Source: Flavobacteriales bacterium (GTDB taxonomy: Bacteria > Bacteroidota > Bacteroidia > Flavobacteriales_D > Crocinitomicaceae). From it: DNA of 44,807 bases. The notes under the pieces were generated by a model, which was not told where the DNA came from, did not search any database, and was given only the letters and a program-made list of their open reading frames with translations. Shown here one piece after another: positions 6,564 to 31,077 of this stretch. The position numbers and the translations under genes are program-made. Position 1 is the first letter of the stretch, and the number at the start of each line of letters is the position of its first letter. The stretch is from the NCBI GenBank assembly GCA_947470515.1, contig CANITF010000025.1, forward strand, positions 1 through 44,807, written 5' to 3'.

Positions 6564-6638
6564 GGCCCATTCGTCTAGTGGTTAGGACGCCAGGTTTTCA
6601 TCCTGGTAACAGGAGTTCGATTCTCCTATGGGCTACCA
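6564..6638 (+). tRNA. tRNA-Glu (anticodon TTC), CCA encoded
   Basis: The cloverleaf is complete: acceptor GGCCCAT with ATGGGCT (G1-U72 wobble), anticodon stem CCAGG/CCTGG around loop TTTTCAT giving anticodon UUC, and T arm AGGAG-TTCGATT-CTCCT. Discriminator A is at 6635 and a genomically encoded CCA at 6636-6638. The 72-nt body is identical to the second copy 17 bp downstream. Confidence 0.97.
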
Positions 6639-6652
6639 AATTTAACCAATTT

Positions 6653-6724
6653 GGCCCATTCGTCTAGTGGTTAGGACGCCAGGTTTTCATCCTGGTAACA
6701 GGAGTTCGATTCTCCTATGGGCTA
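6653..6724 (+). tRNA. tRNA-Glu (anticodon TTC), second copy, CCA not encoded
   Basis: The sequence is identical to the first copy over all 72 nt, with the same UUC anticodon. The bases after discriminator A (6724) are CTA instead of CCA, so this copy needs CCA addition by the nucleotidyltransferase. It lies 33 bp before rpsT and is probably co-transcribed with it. Confidence 0.97.
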
Positions 6725-6757
6725 CTAGAGATTTAAAAACTTTAAAAACAAAAAAAA

Positions 6758-14340: not shown

Positions 14341-14348
14341 TATCTTTG
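14341..14348 (+). promoter_or_regulatory. Promoter -7 box of rpsO
   Basis: TATCTTTG matches TAnnTTTG. A TTG triplet about 18 nt upstream (14320-14322) could be the -33 element. Predicted start about 14355, leaving a leader of about 40 nt before rpsO. Confidence 0.7.
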
Positions 14349-14396
14349 CGCCGTCGATAGTCGACTTACATAAAAATCATTTAATATAATATTGGC

Positions 14397-14666
14397 ATGT
14401 ATTTAAATCCAGAAGTAAAAAAAGAGATCTTCGCTAAACATGGTGGAGCTGAGACAAACACAGGTTCAACAGAAGGTCAAGTTGCATTGTTTACATTTCG
14501 TATTGCTCACTTAACAGGGCATTTGAAGAAAAACCGTAAGGATTACGGTACTCAGCGTTCATTGCAATTATTAGTAGGTAAAAGAAGATCTTTACTTGAC
14601 TATTTAAAGAGAAAAGATATTGAAAAGTATCGTGCTTTAGTTAAAGAATTAGGCTTACGTCGTTAA
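14397..14666 (+). CDS. rpsO: 30S ribosomal protein S15
   Basis: An 89-aa primary 16S rRNA-binding protein. Family marks are F-A-K-H-G-G-A-E-T-N-T-G-S-T-E-G-Q-V-A near the N-terminus, L-T-G-H-L-K-K-N-R-K-D-Y, R-S-L-Q-L-L-V-G-K-R-R-S-L-L-D-Y-L and the end L-G-L-R-R. The length is standard. The order rpsO then pnp is a widely conserved bacterial pair. Here a terminator separates them, so pnp may be transcribed partly by read-through or from its own promoter. Confidence 0.97.
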   Translation: MYLNPEVKKEIFAKHGGAETNTGSTEGQVALFTFRIAHLTGHLKKNRKDYGTQRSLQLLVGKRRSLLDYLKRKDIEKYRALVKELGLRR

Positions 14667-14774: not shown

Positions 14775-16916
14775 ATGAATATAGGAACAAGAAAGTCAAT
14801 GATGACCGGAGGAAAAGAAATTTTCGTTGAAACCGGAAAATTGGCAAAACAGGCAGATGGGTCTGTTGTAGTAAGAATGGGTGACACAATGTTGTTGGCA
14901 ACAGTTGTAGCTGCTCAAGAAGCAAAAGAAGGAGTTGATTTCCTTCCGTTAACTGTTGATTACAGAGAGAAATACTCTGCAGCAGGTCGTTTTCCTGGAG
15001 GATTCTTCCGTAGAGAAGCTCGTCCATCGGAAGGTGAAATATTAATCATGCGTTTGGTAGATAGAGCATTACGTCCTTTATTTCCAGATGATTATCATGC
15101 TGAAGTTCAATTAATGATTCAGTTGTTATCGTATGATGGTGTAAATAATCCAGATGTATTATGTGGATTTGCTGCATCAGCTGCAATAGCTGTTTCTGAT
15201 ATTCCATTCAACGGTCCAATGTCTGAAGTTAGAGTTGGTCGGATCAATGGAGAATGGGTAGTAAACCCAACAATGGCACAAATGAAGGAAGCTGATATCG
15301 ACATGATGGTAGCAGGGACAATGAAAGATGTGAACATGATTGAAGGTGAGTTCAAAGAAGTTTCTGAATTAGAAATGGTTGAAGCTATCAAAATCGCACA
15401 CGCTGCTATTAAAGAGCAATGTCAATTTCAATTGAGTTTAGGTGCTGAAATCGCTACAGCTAATCCAAAAAGAGTTTACTCTCACGAAGTTCATAACGAA
15501 GATGTTAGAAAGAGTGTTTACGATTTTGCAATGGAAAAATGTAAGGACGTAGCGCGAATGGGCTTAGCTAACAAAGCAAAACGTACTGAATTATTTGACG
15601 CAATTAAAACTGAATTCAAAGCAACAATTCCTGCAGAAGAATTAGCTGCAATTAATGGTTTTATTTCTGTTTACTTTTCTGAAGTAAAGAAAAAAGCTGT
15701 TCGTTGGGTGATGTTGCACGAAGGAAAACGTTTAGATGGTCGTAAGTTCGACGAAATTCGTCCGATTTGGGCTGAAGTTGATTATTTACCAATGGTTCAC
15801 GGTTCTGCTGTGTTTACAAGAGGTGAAACGCAATCATTAACTACTTTAACATTGGGTGGTAAAATGGACGAGCAATTAATTGATGGTGCAACTTTCCGTG
15901 GAACAGAGAAATTCTTATTACACTATAATTTCCCTCCATTCTCAACAGGTGAAGCAAAACCACTTCGTGGAACTTCAAGAAGAGAAATTGGACACGGTAA
16001 TTTGGCATTGAGAGCATTGAAAGCTGTTTTACCAGATGATAATGCATATACAATTCGTTTAGTTTCCGATGTGTTAGAATCAAATGGTTCGTCATCAATG
16101 GCAACTGTTTGTGCTGGTACTTTAGCATTAATGGATGGCGGTATTCAAATCAAAGCGCCAGTTTCTGGTATTGCTATGGGATTGATTACTGATGATGGTA
16201 AATTTGCTGTATTGTCTGATATTTTAGGTGATGAAGATCATTTAGGTGACATGGACTTTAAAGTAACTGGAACAGCTAAAGGAATTACTGCTTGTCAAAT
16301 GGATATTAAAGTTGACGGTTTACCGTATGAAGTTTTAATTCAAGCATTGGAGCAAGCAAAAGGTGGACGTTTACATATCTTGGATAAAATTGTTGAAACA
16401 ATTGCGAAACCAAATGCTCAATTGAAGCCTCAAACGCCACGTATTGAAGCATTCAATGTTCCTAATGAAATGATTGGTGCAATCATCGGACCTGGAGGAA
16501 AAATCATTCAGGCAATGCAAAAAGAAACGAATACTACTATTACAATTGAAGAATTAGAAGGTGGAGAAGGACGCGTTCAAGTAATGTCTAACAATGCTGC
16601 TGATATGGCTGCTGCGGTTCTTAGAATTCGTCAAATTGCTTTCCCTCCAATGGTTGAAGAAGGAGTAGAGTATGAAGGAAAAGTGAAATCTGTTAAAGAT
16701 TTCGGATGCTTCGTTGAAATCTTACCTGGAACTGATGGATTGATTCATATCTCCGAATATTCTTGGGAGAAAGTGGACAAAATGGAAGACGTTTGTAAAG
16801 AAGGTGATTTATTGAAATTCAAAGTTGTTGGGAAAGATCCAAAAACGAAGAAATGGAAATTATCTCGTCGTATCTTACTTCCAAGACCAGAAAGAAAAGA
16901 AGAAGCTGCTCAATAA
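14775..16916 (+). CDS. pnp: Polynucleotide phosphorylase
   Basis: 3'-to-5' phosphorolytic exoribonuclease of RNA decay, acting as a trimer. The 713-aa protein has the full order: RNase PH domain 1 (about 10-145), an all-helical linker, RNase PH domain 2 (about 325-540) with the catalytic stretch [17 protein letters not shown], a KH domain (about 553-610, with I-I-G-P-G-G-K-I-I), and an S1 domain (about 622-693, [27 protein letters not shown]). The usual [15 protein letters not shown] motif is present. Start at 14775 fits the family. Confidence 0.98.
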
Positions 16917-24426: not shown

Positions 24427-24434
24427 TATCTTTA
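24427..24434 (+). promoter_or_regulatory. Promoter-like -7 box ahead of the structured RNA
   Basis: TATCTTTA is one base off TAnnTTTG. No good TTTG lies 19 nt upstream. Predicted start about 24440. Confidence 0.4.
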
Positions 24435-24439
24435 CATCA

Positions 24440-24671
24440 GAGATTCTTCCACAGAGTTGGCACAGTAATCTTATTCGTTTCGGCGGAGCCCATGTAGTTT
24501 ATTCTTGAAGCTCTACAATTTTGACCATCAGGGAAGTCTCAGGCAAACAATGGCGGGCTGCATTTCGATTTATCGAAAATAGAATTCGTTCTTACAGCAG
24601 ATTACAACGATTGTCGGCAACCCTAAACCTGTTTTCTGTAGCTTCAGAAAACGCAGCTACATGGGTTTTTT
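24440..24671 (+). ncRNA. Candidate stand-alone structured RNA (class unknown; 6S-like is one option)
   Basis: A non-coding 232-nt unit. CCCATGTAG (24489-24497) pairs perfectly with CTACATGGG (24657-24665), enclosing about 160 nt, and six T follow (24666-24671). Inside, GCTG (24557-24560) pairs with CAGC (24595-24598) around two hairpins, TTTCGAT/ATCGAAA (24563-24578) and AGAA-TTCG-TTCT with a UUCG tetraloop (24581-24592). GTTTTCTG/CAGAAAAC forms another (24631-24652). A 5' hairpin AGATT/AATCT lies at 24441-24471. No gene on the same strand follows, so it is not a normal riboswitch. Size and closing helix suggest a housekeeping or regulatory RNA; assignment to a 6S-type RNA is inference only. 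Confidence 0.65.
24637..24671 (+). terminator. Terminator at the end of the structured RNA
   Basis: TGTAGCT (24637-24643) with AGCTACA (24655-24661), then TGGG and six T. It competes with the GTTTTCTG/CAGAAAAC hairpin and with the long closing helix. The T run overlaps the stop codon of the convergent lipoprotein gene. Confidence 0.7.
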
Positions 24672-25023
24672 AATTTAATACTCCTAAACTATCCATCTCT
24701 TCTATCGAAACAGTAGGAGGGAACCCACCATTTTTCACTTTTTGAAGTATAAAAGAACCCATTACTTCAGCCTTTTCTTTGGTGGAAAAACCGCGATTAC
24801 CTTGAATGGCAGGGATGTTTTTTTGATCAATCATTAGTTTGCCATCTTTCAATAATTGATATCCCCATGTTGCATCTTGGTTTTCTATCACAGCAACAGA
24901 AAATTCAGCATTACTATTGTTTTTTATTGGAGCTTTTGTGTCAACTATTTCTTCTTTTGAATGCTCAATAGTGGAATTACAACTTGCTATTAGAAGTATG
25001 AAAAATATAAAAAATGCTTTCAT
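24670..25023 (-). CDS. DUF4907-like lipoprotein, 117 aa
   Basis: The signal sequence ends in the lipobox L-I-A-S-C (Cys15), so it should be lipid-anchored. The rest (about 40-115) reads W-G-Y-Q-L-L-K-D-G-K-L-M-I-D-Q-K-N-I-P-A-I-Q-G-N-R-G-F, then A-E-V-M-G-S-F-I-L-Q-K-V, G-G-F-P-P-T-V-S and a C-terminal L-G-V-L. I recognise this as the DUF4907 pattern of Bacteroidetes, function unknown. It is the last gene of the Kelch operon, starting 2 bp after the preceding stop. Confidence 0.78.
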   Translation of the reverse strand: MKAFFIFFILLIASCNSTIEHSKEEIVDTKAPIKNNSNAEFSVAVIENQDATWGYQLLKDGKLMIDQKNIPAIQGNRGFSTKEKAEVMGSFILQKVKNGGFPPTVSIEEMDSLGVLN

Positions 25024-25025
25024 GT

Positions 25026-26246
25026 TTATAAAACTATCAATTTCCCTGTTGATTTTTTATTCTTTGAACTATTTACAAGTGTATAAAAATAATTACCTGA
25101 AGATAAATTCGAGGTGTTAATTGAAATTGAATTATTCGAAGTATAATTAGCTTCTATTTTTGATGTTAACTCTTCTCCTGTTATAGAATAGAATTGCAAT
25201 TTCAGTTCGAATGGATTATCATCATGAATGTTAATTGTTGCAATTTCTTTTGCAGGATTCGGATAGATTGATGAAATAAAATTAGAAGTGTTTTCGGTCA
25301 TCCCAACAATTCCAAAATAGGCGTAAAAATCATCTAGGAATATCCCATTGTAACCAGTTCCTAAATATGCAACACCGTCAATTACAAATGAAACAGCATT
25401 TTTCCGTCCAGACCCAATAAAATCAGTACGCTGAATCCAAGAATTTCCAAAATAATTATATTCCCAAACATCTTTTTTATAAGCATAATTGACATCTTCT
25501 CCAGTAGCTATAAATCCTGTTGGGAAAATACCCCAACCTGTTGCTCCAGCTCTTGCCGTTCCTGGGAAATTTGCTTTTTGCATCCATGTATCTGTTGTCG
25601 GAGTGTACATCCAAAAGTCTGTTCTTAAAACACCATCATCGCCTGTACCAATATAACCATTGTCACCCATTTGAAAACCGACAGCTTGTCTTCTAGCTGT
25701 ACCAGAAAAATCGTTCAATTGTGTCCATGTATTTGTCGTTGGCTCGTATTTGTAAAAATCCTTTGTAAGCCCAGTTAAATCTTGCCCCGTTCCAACATAT
25801 GCAATACTATTAATCGTAAATGAGATTGCTTGACGTCGAGCTGTACCAATAAAATCTGCTTTTTGAGTCCATGCACCAGTTCCTAAATCATATTCCCATA
25901 AATCTTTGAAATAAGGATTCGTATCTCCCTGACCCAAGCATACGTAGCCTTTATTCCCAATAGCAAAACTACTGGCTGAACCACGACTTAATCCACTCCC
26001 AGAAAGTCCACCAATAGATTCTTCATTGTCCCAGTTATTTTGCGATGGACTATAAGAATACATTTTTCGATTAAATCCAAAATCATCCAAGCCGCCAATC
26101 ACATATCCATCATGTTGTAAAACAAAACTTGCGCAAGATCCTTTTAAAGGGCCATTTACTGAATCTCGTTGTATCCAAATATCTTGCGAAAATGAAGTAT
26201 AAGAAATTACTAGACCGAGAAATAAATTAATAGTATTCTTGCTCAT
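25026..26246 (-). CDS. Kelch-type beta-propeller T9SS protein, paralogue 1
   Basis: A 406-aa protein with a signal peptide (about 1-20, ending S-F-S-Q). Kelch-type repeats of about 50 residues follow to about residue 310. The repeating core is R-x-x-A-x-x-F-x-I-x-x-x-x-Y-V/I-G-T-G-x-D followed by D-F/L-W-x-Y-x-P-x-T-x-x-W-x-Q. This should fold as a six- or seven-bladed propeller. A T9SS sorting domain closes the protein (I-Y-P-N-P-A-K-E, then S-S-G-N-Y-F-Y). Its ATG overlaps the previous stop by 1 nt (TAATG). The role is presumably ligand binding at or outside the surface; no enzyme motif is seen. Confidence 0.87.
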   Translation of the reverse strand: MSKNTINLFLGLVISYTSFSQDIWIQRDSVNGPLKGSCASFVLQHDGYVIGGLDDFGFNRKMYSYSPSQNNWDNEESIGGLSGSGLSRGSASSFAIGNKGYVCLGQGDTNPYFKDLWEYDLGTGAWTQKADFIGTARRQAISFTINSIAYVGTGQDLTGLTKDFYKYEPTTNTWTQLNDFSGTARRQAVGFQMGDNGYIGTGDDGVLRTDFWMYTPTTDTWMQKANFPGTARAGATGWGIFPTGFIATGEDVNYAYKKDVWEYNYFGNSWIQRTDFIGSGRKNAVSFVIDGVAYLGTGYNGIFLDDFYAYFGIVGMTENTSNFISSIYPNPAKEIATINIHDDNPFELKLQFYSITGEELTSKIEANYTSNNSISINTSNLSSGNYFYTLVNSSKNKKSTGKLIVL

Positions 26247-27466
26247 TACAATAGAATAATTTGTTGTGTTTTTAATATTGCTTTTGATTTATCTAATGCA
26301 ACCAGCATATAAACTCCAGCATTGATGTCAGAATGATCGAAATTTAAAACTTCCTCAAAATTTCTCGCAACATGTTTCAAAAGTTTTCCATCAGTCGAAT
26401 ATATGGCAAATGAATTTATTGATTCATTCGTTGAAACTATTTGAAATGTATTATGTGATGGGTTTGGAAATACGTTGAAATTAACATCCACTAATTCTTC
26501 TGTTCCAAGGATCAGACCGGGAGTGTATTCTTCCATTCCATCTTTTTTACCAGAATATCCTTTTCCTGTTCCGACATATGCTTTGCCATTTACAACAAAA
26601 GCAATAGCATTTTTTCTTTCGCTTCCTCCGTATGGCGCCTTTGAGACCCAATCATTGGTGTTAGGGTTATATTCCCATAAATCGTCTAATATTCCGCCAT
26701 CCGAACCCATGCATACAAATCCACGTTCGCTTATAGTAAAAGTGCAACAGGCACCTCTTTCACTTGCCGGTAAATCTGTTATTTGTGTCCACTGATTGGT
26801 TCCAGCATTGTACTTCCAAAAATCTTTTTTATAAACATCTTCGCTTGCTCCGAGTCCAACGTAACCATAATAACCGATTGAGAAAGATGCTAATTGATAC
26901 CGAACTCCTCCAGGAAAACTAGCGCGTTGCGTCCATTGGTTTATACTTGGTTTGTATTCCCACATTTGACTTGAATAGAAACTTGGAGCACTTTTACCAC
27001 CACAAACATATCCCTTCGAATCAACAGTGAATGCTGTAGCAAAGTACATCCCTGTGCCGCTACCACCTGGATAGTTTGCTACTTGCAACCAACTATTTGT
27101 GATTGGATTATATTCCCAAAAATCATTTAATTTAATTCCTAGAGCGGATTCATCATTATCGATTCCCGTTCCAACATACCCTTTTCCACCTATTGCAAAT
27201 GCTACTGCATCTCTTCTTGCGGAACCCGGAAGATTAGCGATTTGCGTCCAAACATCTAAAATTGGATCGTATTTCCAAAAGTCATTGTGTACAATCTCAA
27301 CAGTATCGACTCCAGTACCAACATAACCAAAATCGCCAATTGAAAAGGCTACAGCTCTCTCTCTTTTAAGTCCAGCAAAGTCATTTTTCTTTAACCATGA
27401 ATTTGGAGCTTGGCCAAATAGACAAAAAGGCAAAGTAACTATAAGAAGACTAATTATTTTCATCAT
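26246..27466 (-). CDS. Kelch-type beta-propeller T9SS protein, paralogue 2
   Basis: 406 aa with a signal peptide (about 1-19, C-L-F-G-Q). The propeller repeats are visible as W-K-Y-D-P-I-L-D-V-W-T-Q, W-E-Y-N-P-I-T-N-S-W-L-Q, W-E-Y-K-P-S-I-N-Q-W-T-Q, W-K-Y-N-A-G-T-N-Q-W-T-Q and W-E-Y-N-P-N-T-N-D-W-V-S. Each repeat carries G-Y/F-V-x-x-G. The sorting domain starts at V-F-P-N-P-S-H-N-T-F and ends I-L-L. It follows paralogue 3 after 6 bp. Close resemblance to its neighbours indicates tandem gene duplication. Confidence 0.87.
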   Translation of the reverse strand: MMKIISLLIVTLPFCLFGQAPNSWLKKNDFAGLKRERAVAFSIGDFGYVGTGVDTVEIVHNDFWKYDPILDVWTQIANLPGSARRDAVAFAIGGKGYVGTGIDNDESALGIKLNDFWEYNPITNSWLQVANYPGGSGTGMYFATAFTVDSKGYVCGGKSAPSFYSSQMWEYKPSINQWTQRASFPGGVRYQLASFSIGYYGYVGLGASEDVYKKDFWKYNAGTNQWTQITDLPASERGACCTFTISERGFVCMGSDGGILDDLWEYNPNTNDWVSKAPYGGSERKNAIAFVVNGKAYVGTGKGYSGKKDGMEEYTPGLILGTEELVDVNFNVFPNPSHNTFQIVSTNESINSFAIYSTDGKLLKHVARNFEEVLNFDHSDINAGVYMLVALDKSKAILKTQQIILL

Positions 27467-27472
27467 ATTTTA

Positions 27473-28633
27473 TTAATTAAAAGTAATTTTCCCGAATTGA
27501 ACAGATTTATTTTTATACAGAATTGCATAGAAATAAATTCCATTTGTCAAATTGTCTCTATTTATAGTATGAAGTGTATTCTGAATAGCTTCTTCTTTTA
27601 TTTTTCTACCGTCTGAAGAGAATAATTGAATTTTACTATTCATTATAATTTCTTGTTCTACATTTGAAAAGTCAAAATTTATTTGATCAACACTTGGATT
27701 AGGAAAAACATTAATATTCAGTTTTGAAAGGTCGTTTTCTACTTGACCAAGTGGGTCAAAATCAAATGCCCAGAAATCATTCATGTTAATTCCATTAGTA
27801 CCGGTTCCAAAATATCCTTTGTTATTGATTGAAAAAGCAACAGGGAATCTTCTACTAGTGCCAGGGAAAAGACAAATCAAATTCCATTGATTATTACCAG
27901 GGTTGAATTCCCAAACTTCGTTTGTTACTAATGATAGCGATCCGACATATCCACACGTCATGTATCCTTTGTTATTCATCGTAAATCCTGCACCACCGTT
28001 ACTCGTTAAACCTGGAAAAGAAGTTCTAACGATCCATTGATCAAGCGCTGGTTTATATTCGTAAAATGTAGTCCCAGATTTCACAAAACCACTACTATTA
28101 GTTGAAAAGGAGGTGCTCCAAGATCCAAAATAGGTTGGGGAATTTGCTTTTATTGCCCATGTATTTGTTAATGGTGAATACTCAGCAAGTTGATTCCCAA
28201 AATAAACATATCCTTTATTTGCTACAGAAAAAACTTGCACATCACCAACAGATAAAGGACAACTTGCTATCTGTGCCCAAACATTTGTAATCGGATTATA
28301 TTCATAAAACTCACCATTTAGGGCAGATCCTCCACCAACATATCCGCGATCACTAGTTGAAAATGCAACTGCACCATGATTTAGAACAGGAAAATTGGCT
28401 TTTTGTGTCCAAGAATCTGATGCAGGATCATATTGCCACCAATCTTTATAATTGATATCAACACCAGTTCCATTTACATGTCCTAACCCCATATATCCTT
28501 TGTTAGCAATTGATATTCCAGTTGCCCTATGTCTTCCAACGCCTCCAAAATCAGCTTTTTGAATCCATGGATTTGCCTGAATATTAGGAATATCAAGTAA
28601 TAGAATTAATACTATGATGAGTTGATTCTTCAT
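27473..28633 (-). CDS. Kelch-type beta-propeller T9SS protein, paralogue 3
   Basis: 386 aa, slightly shorter than its neighbours. Signal peptide about 1-20. Repeats include Q-Y-D-P-A-S-D-S-W-T-Q, E-Y-N-P-I-T-N-V-W-A-Q, E-Y-S-P-L-T-N-T-W-A and E-F-N-P-G-N-N-Q-W-N-L, alternating with N-K-G-Y-x-x-x-G strands. The fourth repeat is more diverged (E-Y-K-P-A-L-D-Q-W-I-V). The C-terminal sorting domain begins V-F-P-N-P-S-V-D-Q-I. Its start directly abuts the stop of paralogue 4, so translation is probably coupled. Confidence 0.86.
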   Translation of the reverse strand: MKNQLIIVLILLLDIPNIQANPWIQKADFGGVGRHRATGISIANKGYMGLGHVNGTGVDINYKDWWQYDPASDSWTQKANFPVLNHGAVAFSTSDRGYVGGGSALNGEFYEYNPITNVWAQIASCPLSVGDVQVFSVANKGYVYFGNQLAEYSPLTNTWAIKANSPTYFGSWSTSFSTNSSGFVKSGTTFYEYKPALDQWIVRTSFPGLTSNGGAGFTMNNKGYMTCGYVGSLSLVTNEVWEFNPGNNQWNLICLFPGTSRRFPVAFSINNKGYFGTGTNGINMNDFWAFDFDPLGQVENDLSKLNINVFPNPSVDQINFDFSNVEQEIIMNSKIQLFSSDGRKIKEEAIQNTLHTINRDNLTNGIYFYAILYKNKSVQFGKITFN

Positions 28634-29848
28634 TTAGTTGGCGATAATAATTTTACCTTTTTTAAAACTGTTTCCTTCGTAATTCAATTGATAGATATAT
28701 TGTCCATTTTGAAGGGTTGCAACATCTATGTTGCACATTGAAGATTCGAAATTTGTTGAACTAATAAGTTTTCCTGTTGCTGAAAACAATGAACATGTAA
28801 CGTTCTCAATTTGAATGAATTCGGGTAATTCTTTTAAAGCAATACAAATGTTTTCAGAAGCTGGATTAGGGTAGGTGTTAATCGTTAAATGTTCCATTTT
28901 TCGTGTCAAAACAGAAAGTATTTGATCAAACATCCAAAAATCTTTAAAGTTGGTACCACTTGTTCCTGTTCCTGTATATGCTCTTGAGCCTATAACAAAC
29001 GATGTTAAATACCTTCTAGGCGTCCCTGCGAAATCTTCAATTTGTATCCAACTGTTTAAAATGGGATCATATTCCCACATATCAGGATAATTGTTACCGC
29101 TTGAATAATCGTCACCTGATCCAATATAACCGAGACCATTAACAGCAAAACCAGTGGCTTCTTGACGCTCAAAGGTTCCAACAGGAGCTTTTACTACCCA
29201 TTGATTTGTGACAGGGTTGTATTGGTAAAAATCATTTGATGAACCACTATTCGTATCGCCAGTTCCTAAATACCCAAAATTTCCTATTGAAAAAGCAACC
29301 GAAGAAGTTCTTGGCAATCCGGGTAAACTCGCTCTAACAATCCATTGATCTGTAAGCGGATTATATTCGTAAAAATCATTTGAGTTACCACTGAATGTTT
29401 GTCCAGTTCCAACATAACCCTTCCCATTTATTGAAAATGCTATAGCACCTCTTCTTTCAACACCAGGTAGATCAGCAATTTGAGTCCAAGTATTTAATTC
29501 GGGTTCATAGGAATAGAAGTTGTTTGAATAGCTGCCATTTGAAAGTCGACCAGTTCCTACATAACCTTTGTTACCAATTGTGAATGATGTAGCATGAAAA
29601 CATTCTCCTTCAGGGTAATTAGCTATTTGTGTCCAAGTATCTGATGAAGGATCATATTTCCAAAAATCCTCGTATTCAACTCCAATTACGGAATTAATAT
29701 GCCCTAAACCTATATAACCAAAGTTCCCAATAGAGAAAGAGGTGGCTCTATGCCTAGCTTCACCTCCAAAATTCGATTTTTCAAACCATGGTTGGGCCAT
29801 TGAATAAAATTGGAATAAGGCAAAAAATACGACAAATAATTTTCTCAT
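28634..29848 (-). CDS. Kelch-type beta-propeller T9SS protein, paralogue 4
   Basis: 404 aa with a signal peptide (about 1-18, F-Y-S-M-A-Q). Six clear Kelch units, for example F-W-K-Y-D-P-S-S-D-T-W-T-Q-I-A, F-Y-S-Y-E-P-E-L-N-T-W-T-Q-I-A and F-Y-E-Y-N-P-L-T-D-Q-W-I-V-R, each followed by R-x-x-A/S-x-A-F-S-I-G/N-x-x-G-Y-x-G-T-G. The sorting domain starts T-Y-P-N-P-A-S-E-N. Its start codon shares 1 nt with the stop of the GEVED gene (TAATG). Its N-terminal region is very like that of paralogue 3, suggesting recent duplication. Confidence 0.87.
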   Translation of the reverse strand: MRKLFVVFFALFQFYSMAQPWFEKSNFGGEARHRATSFSIGNFGYIGLGHINSVIGVEYEDFWKYDPSSDTWTQIANYPEGECFHATSFTIGNKGYVGTGRLSNGSYSNNFYSYEPELNTWTQIADLPGVERRGAIAFSINGKGYVGTGQTFSGNSNDFYEYNPLTDQWIVRASLPGLPRTSSVAFSIGNFGYLGTGDTNSGSSNDFYQYNPVTNQWVVKAPVGTFERQEATGFAVNGLGYIGSGDDYSSGNNYPDMWEYDPILNSWIQIEDFAGTPRRYLTSFVIGSRAYTGTGTSGTNFKDFWMFDQILSVLTRKMEHLTINTYPNPASENICIALKELPEFIQIENVTCSLFSATGKLISSTNFESSMCNIDVATLQNGQYIYQLNYEGNSFKKGKIIIAN

Positions 29849-30987
29849 TATTGGATCATTAATTTTTTAGAATACAATTGCTTTTCTTTCCCGAATTGAA
29901 CAGTGTACATGCCATTCTTTAAATTCAAGATTGAGATATTCTCACCATTATATAGATCAATGTGTTTAACAATTTTTCCAGTTAAATCAATAATTTCAAC
30001 CTTTCCTTGGATTCCTTTAATTGAAAAATTTGTTGTTGCTGGGTTAGGAAATAAAATAAAATCTTGTTCAATCAATTCTTCATTTCCTAAAAAGTCTGCA
30101 TTAATGGATATGTTATACGCTCCACTCGCATTTCCCCATCCTTCAACAATGACATAAGCAAGTCCTAGTCCAGCTGTTTCAAACGTTAAAGAAGAAGAAG
30201 TTGTACCGCATCCTGCTGCATCATCATTAAAAGCAACAATATTTCCAAATGCATCCACAACACTTAAAAAAGTATCAAAGGAAGAACCGCATAAAGAAAC
30301 AGTGATTGATTGCATCAAAGGTGAAGGTGTAATCTGATAATAAACATCTGGAGAATTATAAACCAAATTCTGATTAGAATAGCAAAATGAATTATCACCT
30401 GTATTTGTATATGGCAAGGTTGCCACAATTATTGGATCAACTGTGTCATCTCCAACATATGCACTGCAATCAATGCCATTTCCAATTGTAATACTAAAAT
30501 CCATTACGGAACCCCAAGCAAATGTTGCGCAAGGATTTAAGGGCAATATTCCTTGTTCTTGCTGCGTAACGCGCATTCTAGTTACTCCATTTTGAGCACC
30601 AGCTGGAACATTGAAATTAAAAATAGATAAGGGAGTAGGTGGTATTCCAGACCAAGTACCAATCGATTCTGATGGATCAAATAATCCATTTTGGTCATAA
30701 TCAATCCATGCTTCACCAGCTCCTGCATAATTCCCACCACATGTGCTAAATTGAATATTGGCAACATATGACCCTCCAGCATTTAAGGTTGTTCCCAATG
30801 CCGTTAAATTTTGTAAGCCAATAACACCGGGACAACCAATATAATTGATAGAACCTAAAACACCGGTCAACTGAACCGACCCAACGTTGGAATCAGCTGT
30901 ACTTGTTGGTCCAACCGCAGTGCAATATTGCGCGTTTGTAGAAAAAATCGTCAATGACGTGAATAGAAGCAAGTGGATATTTCTCAT
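29848..30987 (-). CDS. GEVED- and PPC-domain T9SS cargo protein
   Basis: First gene of the Kelch operon, 379 aa from the chosen start. Signal peptide about 1-20 (M-R-N-I-H-L-L-L-F-T-S-L-T, ending T-N-A-Q). A GEVED domain (about 75-165) has the core E-A-W-I-D-Y-D-Q-N-G-L-F. A PPC-like beta-sandwich (about 200-300) has S-F-D-T-F-L-S-V-V-D and A-Y-V-I-V-E-G-W-G. The T9SS sorting domain begins L-F-P-N-P-A-T-T-N-F and ends K-L-M-I-Q. The frame is open to 31029, but the ATG at 30987 gives a clean signal peptide and lies after a promoter-like TATCTTAG. Both domains are non-catalytic and usual in secreted adhesins or proteases. Confidence 0.85.
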   Translation of the reverse strand: MRNIHLLLFTSLTIFSTNAQYCTAVGPTSTADSNVGSVQLTGVLGSINYIGCPGVIGLQNLTALGTTLNAGGSYVANIQFSTCGGNYAGAGEAWIDYDQNGLFDPSESIGTWSGIPPTPLSIFNFNVPAGAQNGVTRMRVTQQEQGILPLNPCATFAWGSVMDFSITIGNGIDCSAYVGDDTVDPIIVATLPYTNTGDNSFCYSNQNLVYNSPDVYYQITPSPLMQSITVSLCGSSFDTFLSVVDAFGNIVAFNDDAAGCGTTSSSLTFETAGLGLAYVIVEGWGNASGAYNISINADFLGNEELIEQDFILFPNPATTNFSIKGIQGKVEIIDLTGKIVKHIDLYNGENISILNLKNGMYTVQFGKEKQLYSKKLMIQ

Positions 30988-31004
30988 AGCAATAGTTAAT
31001 TGTG

Positions 31005-31012
31005 CTAAGATA
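31005..31012 (-). promoter_or_regulatory. Promoter-like box of the GEVED/Kelch operon
   Basis: On the minus strand, TATCTTAG is one base off TAnnTTTG, 17 bp before the ATG at 30987. A terminator for the upstream CotH gene lies just before it (31084-31106), which supports a new promoter here. Confidence 0.45.
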
Positions 31013-31077
31013 GAGAAATTCCTTAACATACAGTTAACATTGGGTTGTTATTTGGTTAAAAAAGAAATTTGATGAAA

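Follow-up and report, generated by a model that had tools for sequence, protein, structure and literature searches.

A probable 6S RNA with an additional pair of 5' hairpins in a Crocinitomicaceae-type flavobacterium

Introduction

6S RNA is a small RNA that mimics a promoter and keeps RNA polymerase sequestered. The question raised by the locus discussed here is whether a structured RNA in flavobacterial DNA belongs to this class or to a new family. In the window, the whole stretch of 44,807 nucleotides that was analysed, a stand-alone non-coding RNA had been noticed on the plus strand at 24427-24671. The preliminary description regarded it as being of unrecognised class and possibly a new family, and also as a trans-acting or housekeeping RNA whose size and hairpin plan would suit a 6S-type RNA. 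In Bacteroides thetaiotaomicron, a 6S RNA has been detected by sequencing, with evidence for pRNAs (PMC7366714), and the RNAs detected in Flavobacterium psychrophilum include a 6S RNA (PMC9723704). With a probability of about 0.93, the window RNA is the only 6S RNA in the genome of a flavobacterium of Crocinitomicaceae type. Crocinitomicaceae is listed in the taxonomy as a family of the Flavobacteriales, and the window's genome is taken to belong to it.

Relationship to the 6S RNA families of the phylum

A default Rfam scan of the window picked up two tRNAs and an S15 leader but nothing at the RNA locus. Once the curated cut-off was lifted, RF01693 (Bacteroidales-1), which carries the Rfam remark '6S-Bacteroidales RNA suggested', ranked first. 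Its model aligns over its full length (1-179 of 179) with window 24487-24672, at 40.7 bits and an E value of 1.4e-5. This score does not reach the gathering cut-off of 60 bits, so the default scan misses the window RNA, which is called a homolog of RF01693 and not an Rfam-listed member. RF01685 (6S-Flavo) scored 18.1 bits (E 6.1), short of its cut-off of 85 bits, and RF00013, the general 6S model (cut-off 46.4 bits), had no match at E <= 10 in the RNA's own genome. When this whole genome was searched with RF01693 at E <= 1, the window RNA was the one match (E 3.0e-5). At the same threshold, RF01693 matched 40 of 60 genomes (own included), the weakest of these matches possibly being due to chance; one of the 40 was above the cut-off and 39 were below it. 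RF01685 found nothing in the own genome and matched three of the 60, none above its cut-off. Plain DNA comparison at E <= 0.01 matched 29 of the 60 genomes (own included), the weakest via short pieces. The window RNA is left unannotated by the default scan and, judging by these scores, so are most of the relatives examined.

The comparison was also made in the opposite direction, with a covariance model (R1) built from 24 relatives of the window RNA. Among family genomes at least 80% complete, R1 matched 122 of 200 (own included), in 21 of 23 genera. 6S RNA is usually encoded by a single gene in a genome, and a single match per genome was obtained in 120 of these 122; the second match in genome G031 is the reverse strand of the same place. 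In a search of the class, restricted to genomes at least 90% complete and to six scored candidates per genome, R1 matched 23 of 396 genomes: besides the own genome, six more come from its family, and the remaining 16 lie outside the order. Twenty loci were scanned with Rfam at the curated cut-offs: the 16 outside the order, L021 from another family of the order, and L022, L024 and L080 from the own family. Nine of the 16 are RF01693 at 129-189 bits and one (L094) is RF01685 at 104.5 bits, with an R1 score of 48.7 bits; the other six lie below every cut-off. L021 is RF01693 at 61.7 bits, and the three loci of the own family reach no Rfam cut-off. Both known 6S families of the phylum are, by these model scores, found by a model made only from the window's relatives, which suggests that RF01693 and RF01685, two separate families in Rfam, are branches of one 6S family. 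R1 and its structure help to close the annotation gap.

The earlier suggestion of a 6S-type RNA is borne out by the full-length RF01693 match and the reciprocal covariance-model evidence, and that of an unrecognised class is superseded, the window RNA being homologous to RF01693 and RF01685. The rival view, that this is a new family of structured RNA with no kinship to 6S RNA, acting in trans by base pairing, would fit a score below every Rfam cut-off and a branched minimum-energy fold. It is nevertheless very improbable in view of the full-length RF01693 alignment, the known RF01693 and RF01685 loci picked by R1 in distant families, the nearly constant single copy per genome and the long rod with a central bubble. 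Judged by comparison of sequences and structures, the RNA is real and is a 6S RNA, not a new family.

Several additional loci were observed during these searches. Six loci of other families (L089, L090, L091, L092, L098 and L100) give full-length R1 matches of 37-53 bits below all Rfam cut-offs and are possibly further unannotated 6S RNAs of the phylum. In genome G480, R1 has two matches on contig C2, at 161088-161257 and 163204-163371; the weaker one (29 bits, E 0.001), 2 kb from the main 6S RNA, is possibly a degenerate paralog. Genome G020, which is 75% complete, carries two different 6S RNAs, each with the 5' domain described below (C77 4198-4385 and C84 3115-3297; L012 and L032). One of them is nearly identical to that of G004, and the two may with equal likelihood reflect a mixed assembly or a genuine pair.

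Rod structure and covariation

The features of the window RNA are given below; all lie on the plus strand.

24427-24434, plus strand: -7 promoter box TATCTTTA, agreeing with TAnnTTTG at 7/8 positions, the last base being missed
24440-24472, plus strand: accessory 5' hairpin H1, with outer stem 24440-24445/24467-24472, bulged base 24466, CU/AG, a 1x3 internal loop, CCA/UGG and a 6-nt loop
24474-24487, plus strand: accessory 5' hairpin H2, UUCGU/GCGGA, directly abutting the closing stem; drawn by RNAalifold
24488-24499, plus strand: 5' strand of the closing stem P1, pairing with 24655-24666; 12 bp with G-U pairs
24505-24512, plus strand: P2 5' strand UUGAAGCU, pairing with 24640-24647
24513-24529, plus strand: 5' side of the central bubble, left unpaired by the hand-drawn structure, with P2 and P4 on either side; RNAalifold adds 3 pairs
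24530-24533, plus strand: P4 5' strand AGGG, pairing with CCCU at 24621-24624; 3/4 pairs change on both sides
24542-24561, plus strand: 5' strands of P5 (24542-24548), UG (24551-24552) and P6 (CUGC, 24558-24561), with conserved AAUGGCGGGC, from the RF01693 alignment
24563-24578, plus strand: apical hairpin 1, UUUCGAUUUAUCGAAA, variable in sequence among relatives; RF01693 too has two apical hairpins
24581-24592, plus strand: apical hairpin 2, AGAA-UUCG-UUCU with a UUCG loop, from its own fold and sequence
24597-24624, plus strand: 3' strands of P6, the UG/CA pair, P5 and P4, with conserved GAUUACA, from the RF01693 alignment and pair counts
24631-24652, plus strand: 3' central-bubble hairpin GUUUUCUG/CAGAAAAC, mutually exclusive with P2, whose 3' strand lies inside it
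24640-24647, plus strand: P2 3' strand AGCUUCAG, pairing with 24505-24512
24655-24671, plus strand: P1 3' strand and U6 tract, with six T at 24666-24671

Most elements first noticed in the sequence are present. The 9-bp perfect helix, CCCATGTAG at 24489-24497 with CTACATGGG at 24657-24665, lies within the 12-bp closing stem, and the hairpin with the UUCG loop and the run of six T were recovered as described. The region upstream of this helix, on which the preliminary description was silent, is also structured. P1 may double as a terminator stem.

The single sequence folds at -57.1 kcal/mol with a z of -1.21, and 25 of 200 shuffles fold as well. This energy is not exceptional and was dropped as evidence, so the case rests on comparison. 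By z, the reverse strand folds better (-2.19), and R1 gives weak reverse-strand matches of 28-29 bits in L004 and L043; these reverse-strand signals are read as mirror images of a palindromic rod.

Alignments A1 and A2 hold 24 of 30 family loci, with L003, L010, L014, L015 and L016 left out as near-duplicates and L031 for its other layout. In A1, a plain MAFFT alignment for which the structure was drawn by hand, 89.6% of cells are paired. Changes on both sides are found in 23 pairs and 116 cells, compared with 18.0 and 36.4 in shuffles, and 116 double-changed cells were reached by none of 500 shuffles. The covariation is 0.285 versus 0.142 in shuffled alignments and at most 0.104 when slid. 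Among these close relatives, covariation is mainly found in H1, H2, P4, P5 (6/7 pairs changing on both sides) and P6 (2/4), and P1 and P2 are conserved rather than covarying. In P1, nine of the 12 pairs never vary and one changes on both sides; P2 is 94.9% paired, with double-sided change in none of its nine pairs.

RNAalifold, applied unguided to the 24 relatives, gave an unbranched rod consisting of the closing stem, P2, a central bubble with one short helix, P4, P5, a GGCGGGC/GAUUAC internal loop and P6, together with H2; H1 was not drawn in this consensus. Both the consensus and the pair counts yield the 6S layout, a rod of about 180-200 nt with closing stem, central bubble and apical stem. 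The four-way inner region noted earlier is found in the minimum-energy fold of the single sequence but not in the alignment consensus. The argument that a branched interior is richer than a 6S rod is not upheld, since it was drawn from that single-sequence fold; the 24 relatives support the unbranched rod, and the branched form appears as an alternative hairpin state. With an APC-corrected G statistic, which reduces the effect of relatedness, drawn pairs take ranks 1, 2, 3, 5, 7 and 14 among 25,692 column pairs, ranks 4, 6 and 8 to 13 not being drawn pairs. Sixteen of the 42 drawn pairs tested are among the first 200, and the rest rank lower, many being nearly invariant.

For wider coverage, 40 further loci were hand-picked across genera from the 122 genomes matched by R1. 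The phylum-wide alignment contains 76 of 81 loci (L002, L004, L131, L156 and L168 dropped). As this alignment was fitted to the structure model, including P2, and leans towards it, its counts are to be read accordingly: 39/39 modelled pairs change on both sides, among them 10/10 in P1 and 8/8 in P2, and P1 is paired in 98.8% of cells, the weakest helices in 71.0% and 68.6%.

The window RNA shares with RF01693 the alignment across the whole model, the conserved AAUGGCGGGC/GAUUACA loop, the two apical hairpins and the U-rich end, and P1 and P2 can be drawn in both RF01693 loci and the window RNA. The structure line of the RF01693 model, however, draws no pairs in the flanks and no closing stem, so that both the closing stem and P2 go beyond what it shows. 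Unlike RF01693, the window RNA also has a 5' two-hairpin domain and a strong 3' central-bubble hairpin. P2 and the 3' hairpin can be drawn in the RF01685 locus L094 as well, whereas the apical stem and the letters of P2 differ from those of the window RNA. Closing stem, central bubble and apical stem are shared with RF00013 (E. coli, B. subtilis).

Alternative pairing and a possible release switch

The counts on P2, on the 3' central-bubble hairpin and, further below, on the promoter box and the 5' domain, as well as the statements on which helices can be drawn, cover 80 of the 81 loci (58 of the family and 22 others), L168 being a duplicate of L057; the set still includes near-duplicates, L001, L002 and L004 for example, and the counts are not of independent cases. 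In the 24 relatives, the 3' central-bubble hairpin is paired in 92.7% of cells, and one of its eight pairs changes on both sides. For the window RNA, the state with P2 is predicted at -55.1 kcal/mol and that with the hairpin, to which the four-way fold noted earlier corresponds, at -56.8 kcal/mol, a difference of 1.7 kcal/mol. The hairpin is above shuffles (z <= -1.5) in 44/58 family loci, in 8/13 other loci, including L021, the RF01693 locus inside the order, and in 0/9 RF01693 loci outside the order, which are Bacteroidales by Rfam name only. For P2, the corresponding counts are 39/58, 11/13 and 2/9, and for both pairings together 34/58, 7/13 and 0/9. Although P2 can be drawn in the RF01693 loci outside the order, as a group it is not above shuffles there by stability. 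According to these predictions, both alternative pairings can form in most family members. As the hairpin exceeds shuffles in none of the nine RF01693 loci outside the order, the putative release switch is not universal. In a strand-swap test of P2, with groups comprising 63 of the 80 loci, exchange for a foreign strand weakened the pairing in 26 of 30 combinations. The own strands are best in three of six lineage groups, and in the other three a foreign strand has an advantage of up to 1.0 kcal/mol.

In E. coli-type 6S RNA, P2 is unwound by pRNA synthesis and a 9-bp 3'-CB hairpin is formed, which makes a major contribution to release (PMC8876501). The window RNA is like this type in having a predicted P2/3'-CB hairpin switch, and the four-way fold appears, from the predicted energies and pairings, to be an alternative hairpin state resembling it. 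By analogy with known 6S RNAs, the RNA would imitate an open promoter and, once nutrients are depleted, occupy the RNA polymerase that carries the primary sigma factor. The polymerase would then copy a short pRNA from the 5' side of the bubble, leading to release of the 6S RNA; the bubble strand at 24513-24529 together with the P2 5' strand is the likely template. The pRNA would pair with the P2 5' strand and free the P2 3' strand, which could then snap into the 3' central-bubble hairpin, this being the E. coli-type release step. From these parallels, we infer that the same pRNA-driven release cycle operates here as in known 6S RNAs. The strength of the release hairpin in the family and in 8 of the 13 other loci, and not in the nine RF01693 loci outside the order, predicts different release within the phylum.

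The promoter box and the accessory 5' domain

The Bacteroidota -7 box has the consensus TAnnTTTG, as quoted in PMC7366714, and the promoter-like box noted at 24427 is confirmed as a 7/8 match to it. Transcription would, from the position of this box, start near 24440. The predicted RNA has at its own locus both a promoter-like box and a terminator-like U6 end, and the box is placed consistently in the family: in 44/58 family loci (4.5% in shuffles), the 6S core is preceded at a distance of 44-64 nt by a TAnnTTTG/A box, as it is in 1/22 loci of other families. In the latter, it is found 8-30 nt upstream in 14/22 loci (5.8% in shuffles), a position seen in 1/58 family loci. The family's box is about 30 nt farther upstream than that of other families, and the start site has apparently been displaced outward, over a distance close to the length of the 5' domain.

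The approximately 48 nt between the promoter box and the 6S core are not covered by the Rfam models and fold into H1 and H2. In 21 relatives, 9/11 drawn pairs of H1 change on both sides, with a covariation of 0.457 versus 0.181 shuffled, and its column pair 11-38 holds rank 1 of 25,692; only 11 of the 21 can form the A-U pair next to the bulge. In H2, 3/5 pairs change on both sides in the 24 relatives, and column pair 48-56 holds rank 5 of 25,692. By eye, MAFFT misaligned H1 in L017, L018, L027, L043, L057 and L065; these rows were kept in A1, where they lower the counts for H1, and all but L018 were left out of the H1 alignment A4. Many family members have, also by eye, a short step between one bulged base and a small internal loop in the leader.

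By a folding criterion that was set after individual leader folds had been viewed, a pair of neighbouring hairpins that ends at the core is predicted for 52/58 family loci and for 388 of 5800 shuffles (6.7%), near-duplicates included. The same criterion gives 0/22 loci of other families (64 of 2200 shuffles). The six family loci that fail are L134, L144, L145, L152, L157 and L163. If the leader is trimmed to the promoter box or extended, L134, L144, L145 and L157 show two hairpins; in L152 and L163 they were found with neither leader cut. R2, a covariance model of H1, gave 23 matches at E <= 4.3e-9 in 60 genomes, each at most 2 nt from a 6S core, and 14 of the 23 are training loci. A search of the same 60 genomes for other copies of the 5' domain gave no R2 match above 25.5 bits away from 6S, and in same-family genomes of other genera no match was found in 7 of 11. 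R2 recovers only 6/37 family loci outside the training set, which indicates that the sequence of H1 diverges quickly; for this reason, the family-wide claim rests on folding (52/58). On this comparative evidence, the 5' end of the family's 6S RNA carries a conserved extra hairpin pair that lies outside the Rfam models. It was seen only in the family of the window RNA. No description of it was found in the 6S RNA literature searched, which did not extend to the survey by Wehner et al. (2014), and it may be already published. The description of E. coli-type 6S RNA in PMC8876501 differs from the window RNA in having no 5' domain.

The 6S RNAs of some other bacteria undergo 5'-end maturation. By that precedent, the two-hairpin stretch could be a leader that is removed, leaving an ordinary 6S RNA of about 183 nt as the working molecule, and the end of H2 indeed coincides exactly with the start of the RF01693 core. 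This is a serious possibility, if somewhat short of an even chance, since helices and internal features recur across genera, which would not be expected of a discarded leader unless the structure itself directs the cut. There is about an even chance that the 5' domain is instead a retained functional part, for example a 5' cap against decay or a protein-binding site. Such retention is favoured by the covariation of the domain, by strong R2 matches found only beside 6S cores and by the outward shift of the promoter box by about the same span; its absence from two of the 58 family loci with either leader cut and the fast divergence of the H1 sequence speak against it. The 5' domain might act on the 5' end, in maturation or protection from decay, or dock a partner. 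Since it abuts the closing stem on the outside, remote from the bubble, it would hardly take part in promoter mimicry itself. It is a doubtful extension that the 6S RNA of Crocinitomicaceae is a two-part molecule, in which a promoter-mimic rod is joined to a retained 5' domain binding a lineage-specific partner; if true, polymerase sequestration or release would be coupled to a second signal.

Genomic neighbourhood

Upstream of the RNA, a divergent FkbM methyltransferase gene (24350 to 23580) is accompanied by genes for a LapA-domain protein (plus strand) and for EF-P (minus strand). Downstream, and convergent with it, are genes for DUF4907 and Kelch proteins with T9SS sorting domains. As noted before, the RNA is not followed by any evident plus-strand gene: the long ORFs between 24670 and 36421 lie on the minus strand, and they are overlapped by the plus-strand ORFs listed there. 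Neighbours were counted at 28 relative loci that had been found by RNA searches and have limited flanks (L002-L020, L022, L024-L027, L032, L043, L057 and L065), nine overlapping loci being uncounted. A match to the FkbM methyltransferase was seen in 17, to the LapA-domain protein in 10, to EF-P in nine and to the adjacent Kelch protein in six. The position of the RNA beside the Kelch operon holds at this locus but is incidental, and a link of the RNA to the Kelch genes was dropped because of the Kelch neighbour in only 6/28 relative loci. A riboswitch or leader of a downstream plus-strand gene would account for the succession of promoter-like box, structure and terminator-like end, yet with no such gene evident and with neighbours that vary among relatives, its probability is practically negligible.

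The U tract of the 6S RNA (24666-24672) shares bases with the stop codon of the DUF4907 gene, which converges on it (24670-25023, minus strand), and because of this overlap, transcripts of the latter may run antisense through the 6S gene. Farther along the minus strand, five adjacent ORFs of 386-406 aa occupy 25026-31029 and look like a tandem expansion; the three that were scanned have Kelch repeats and a Por_Secre_tail sorting domain (T9SS cargo). Elsewhere in the window, an S15-Flavobacteria ribosomal protein leader (RF03161, 61.7 bits) lies at 14341-14399, directly before an 89-aa ORF (14397-14666) that is followed by the PNPase gene at 14775-16916. Two tandem tRNA-Glu(UUC) genes, at 6564-6638 and 6653-6725, are 14 bases apart and identical over the 72 bases shown.
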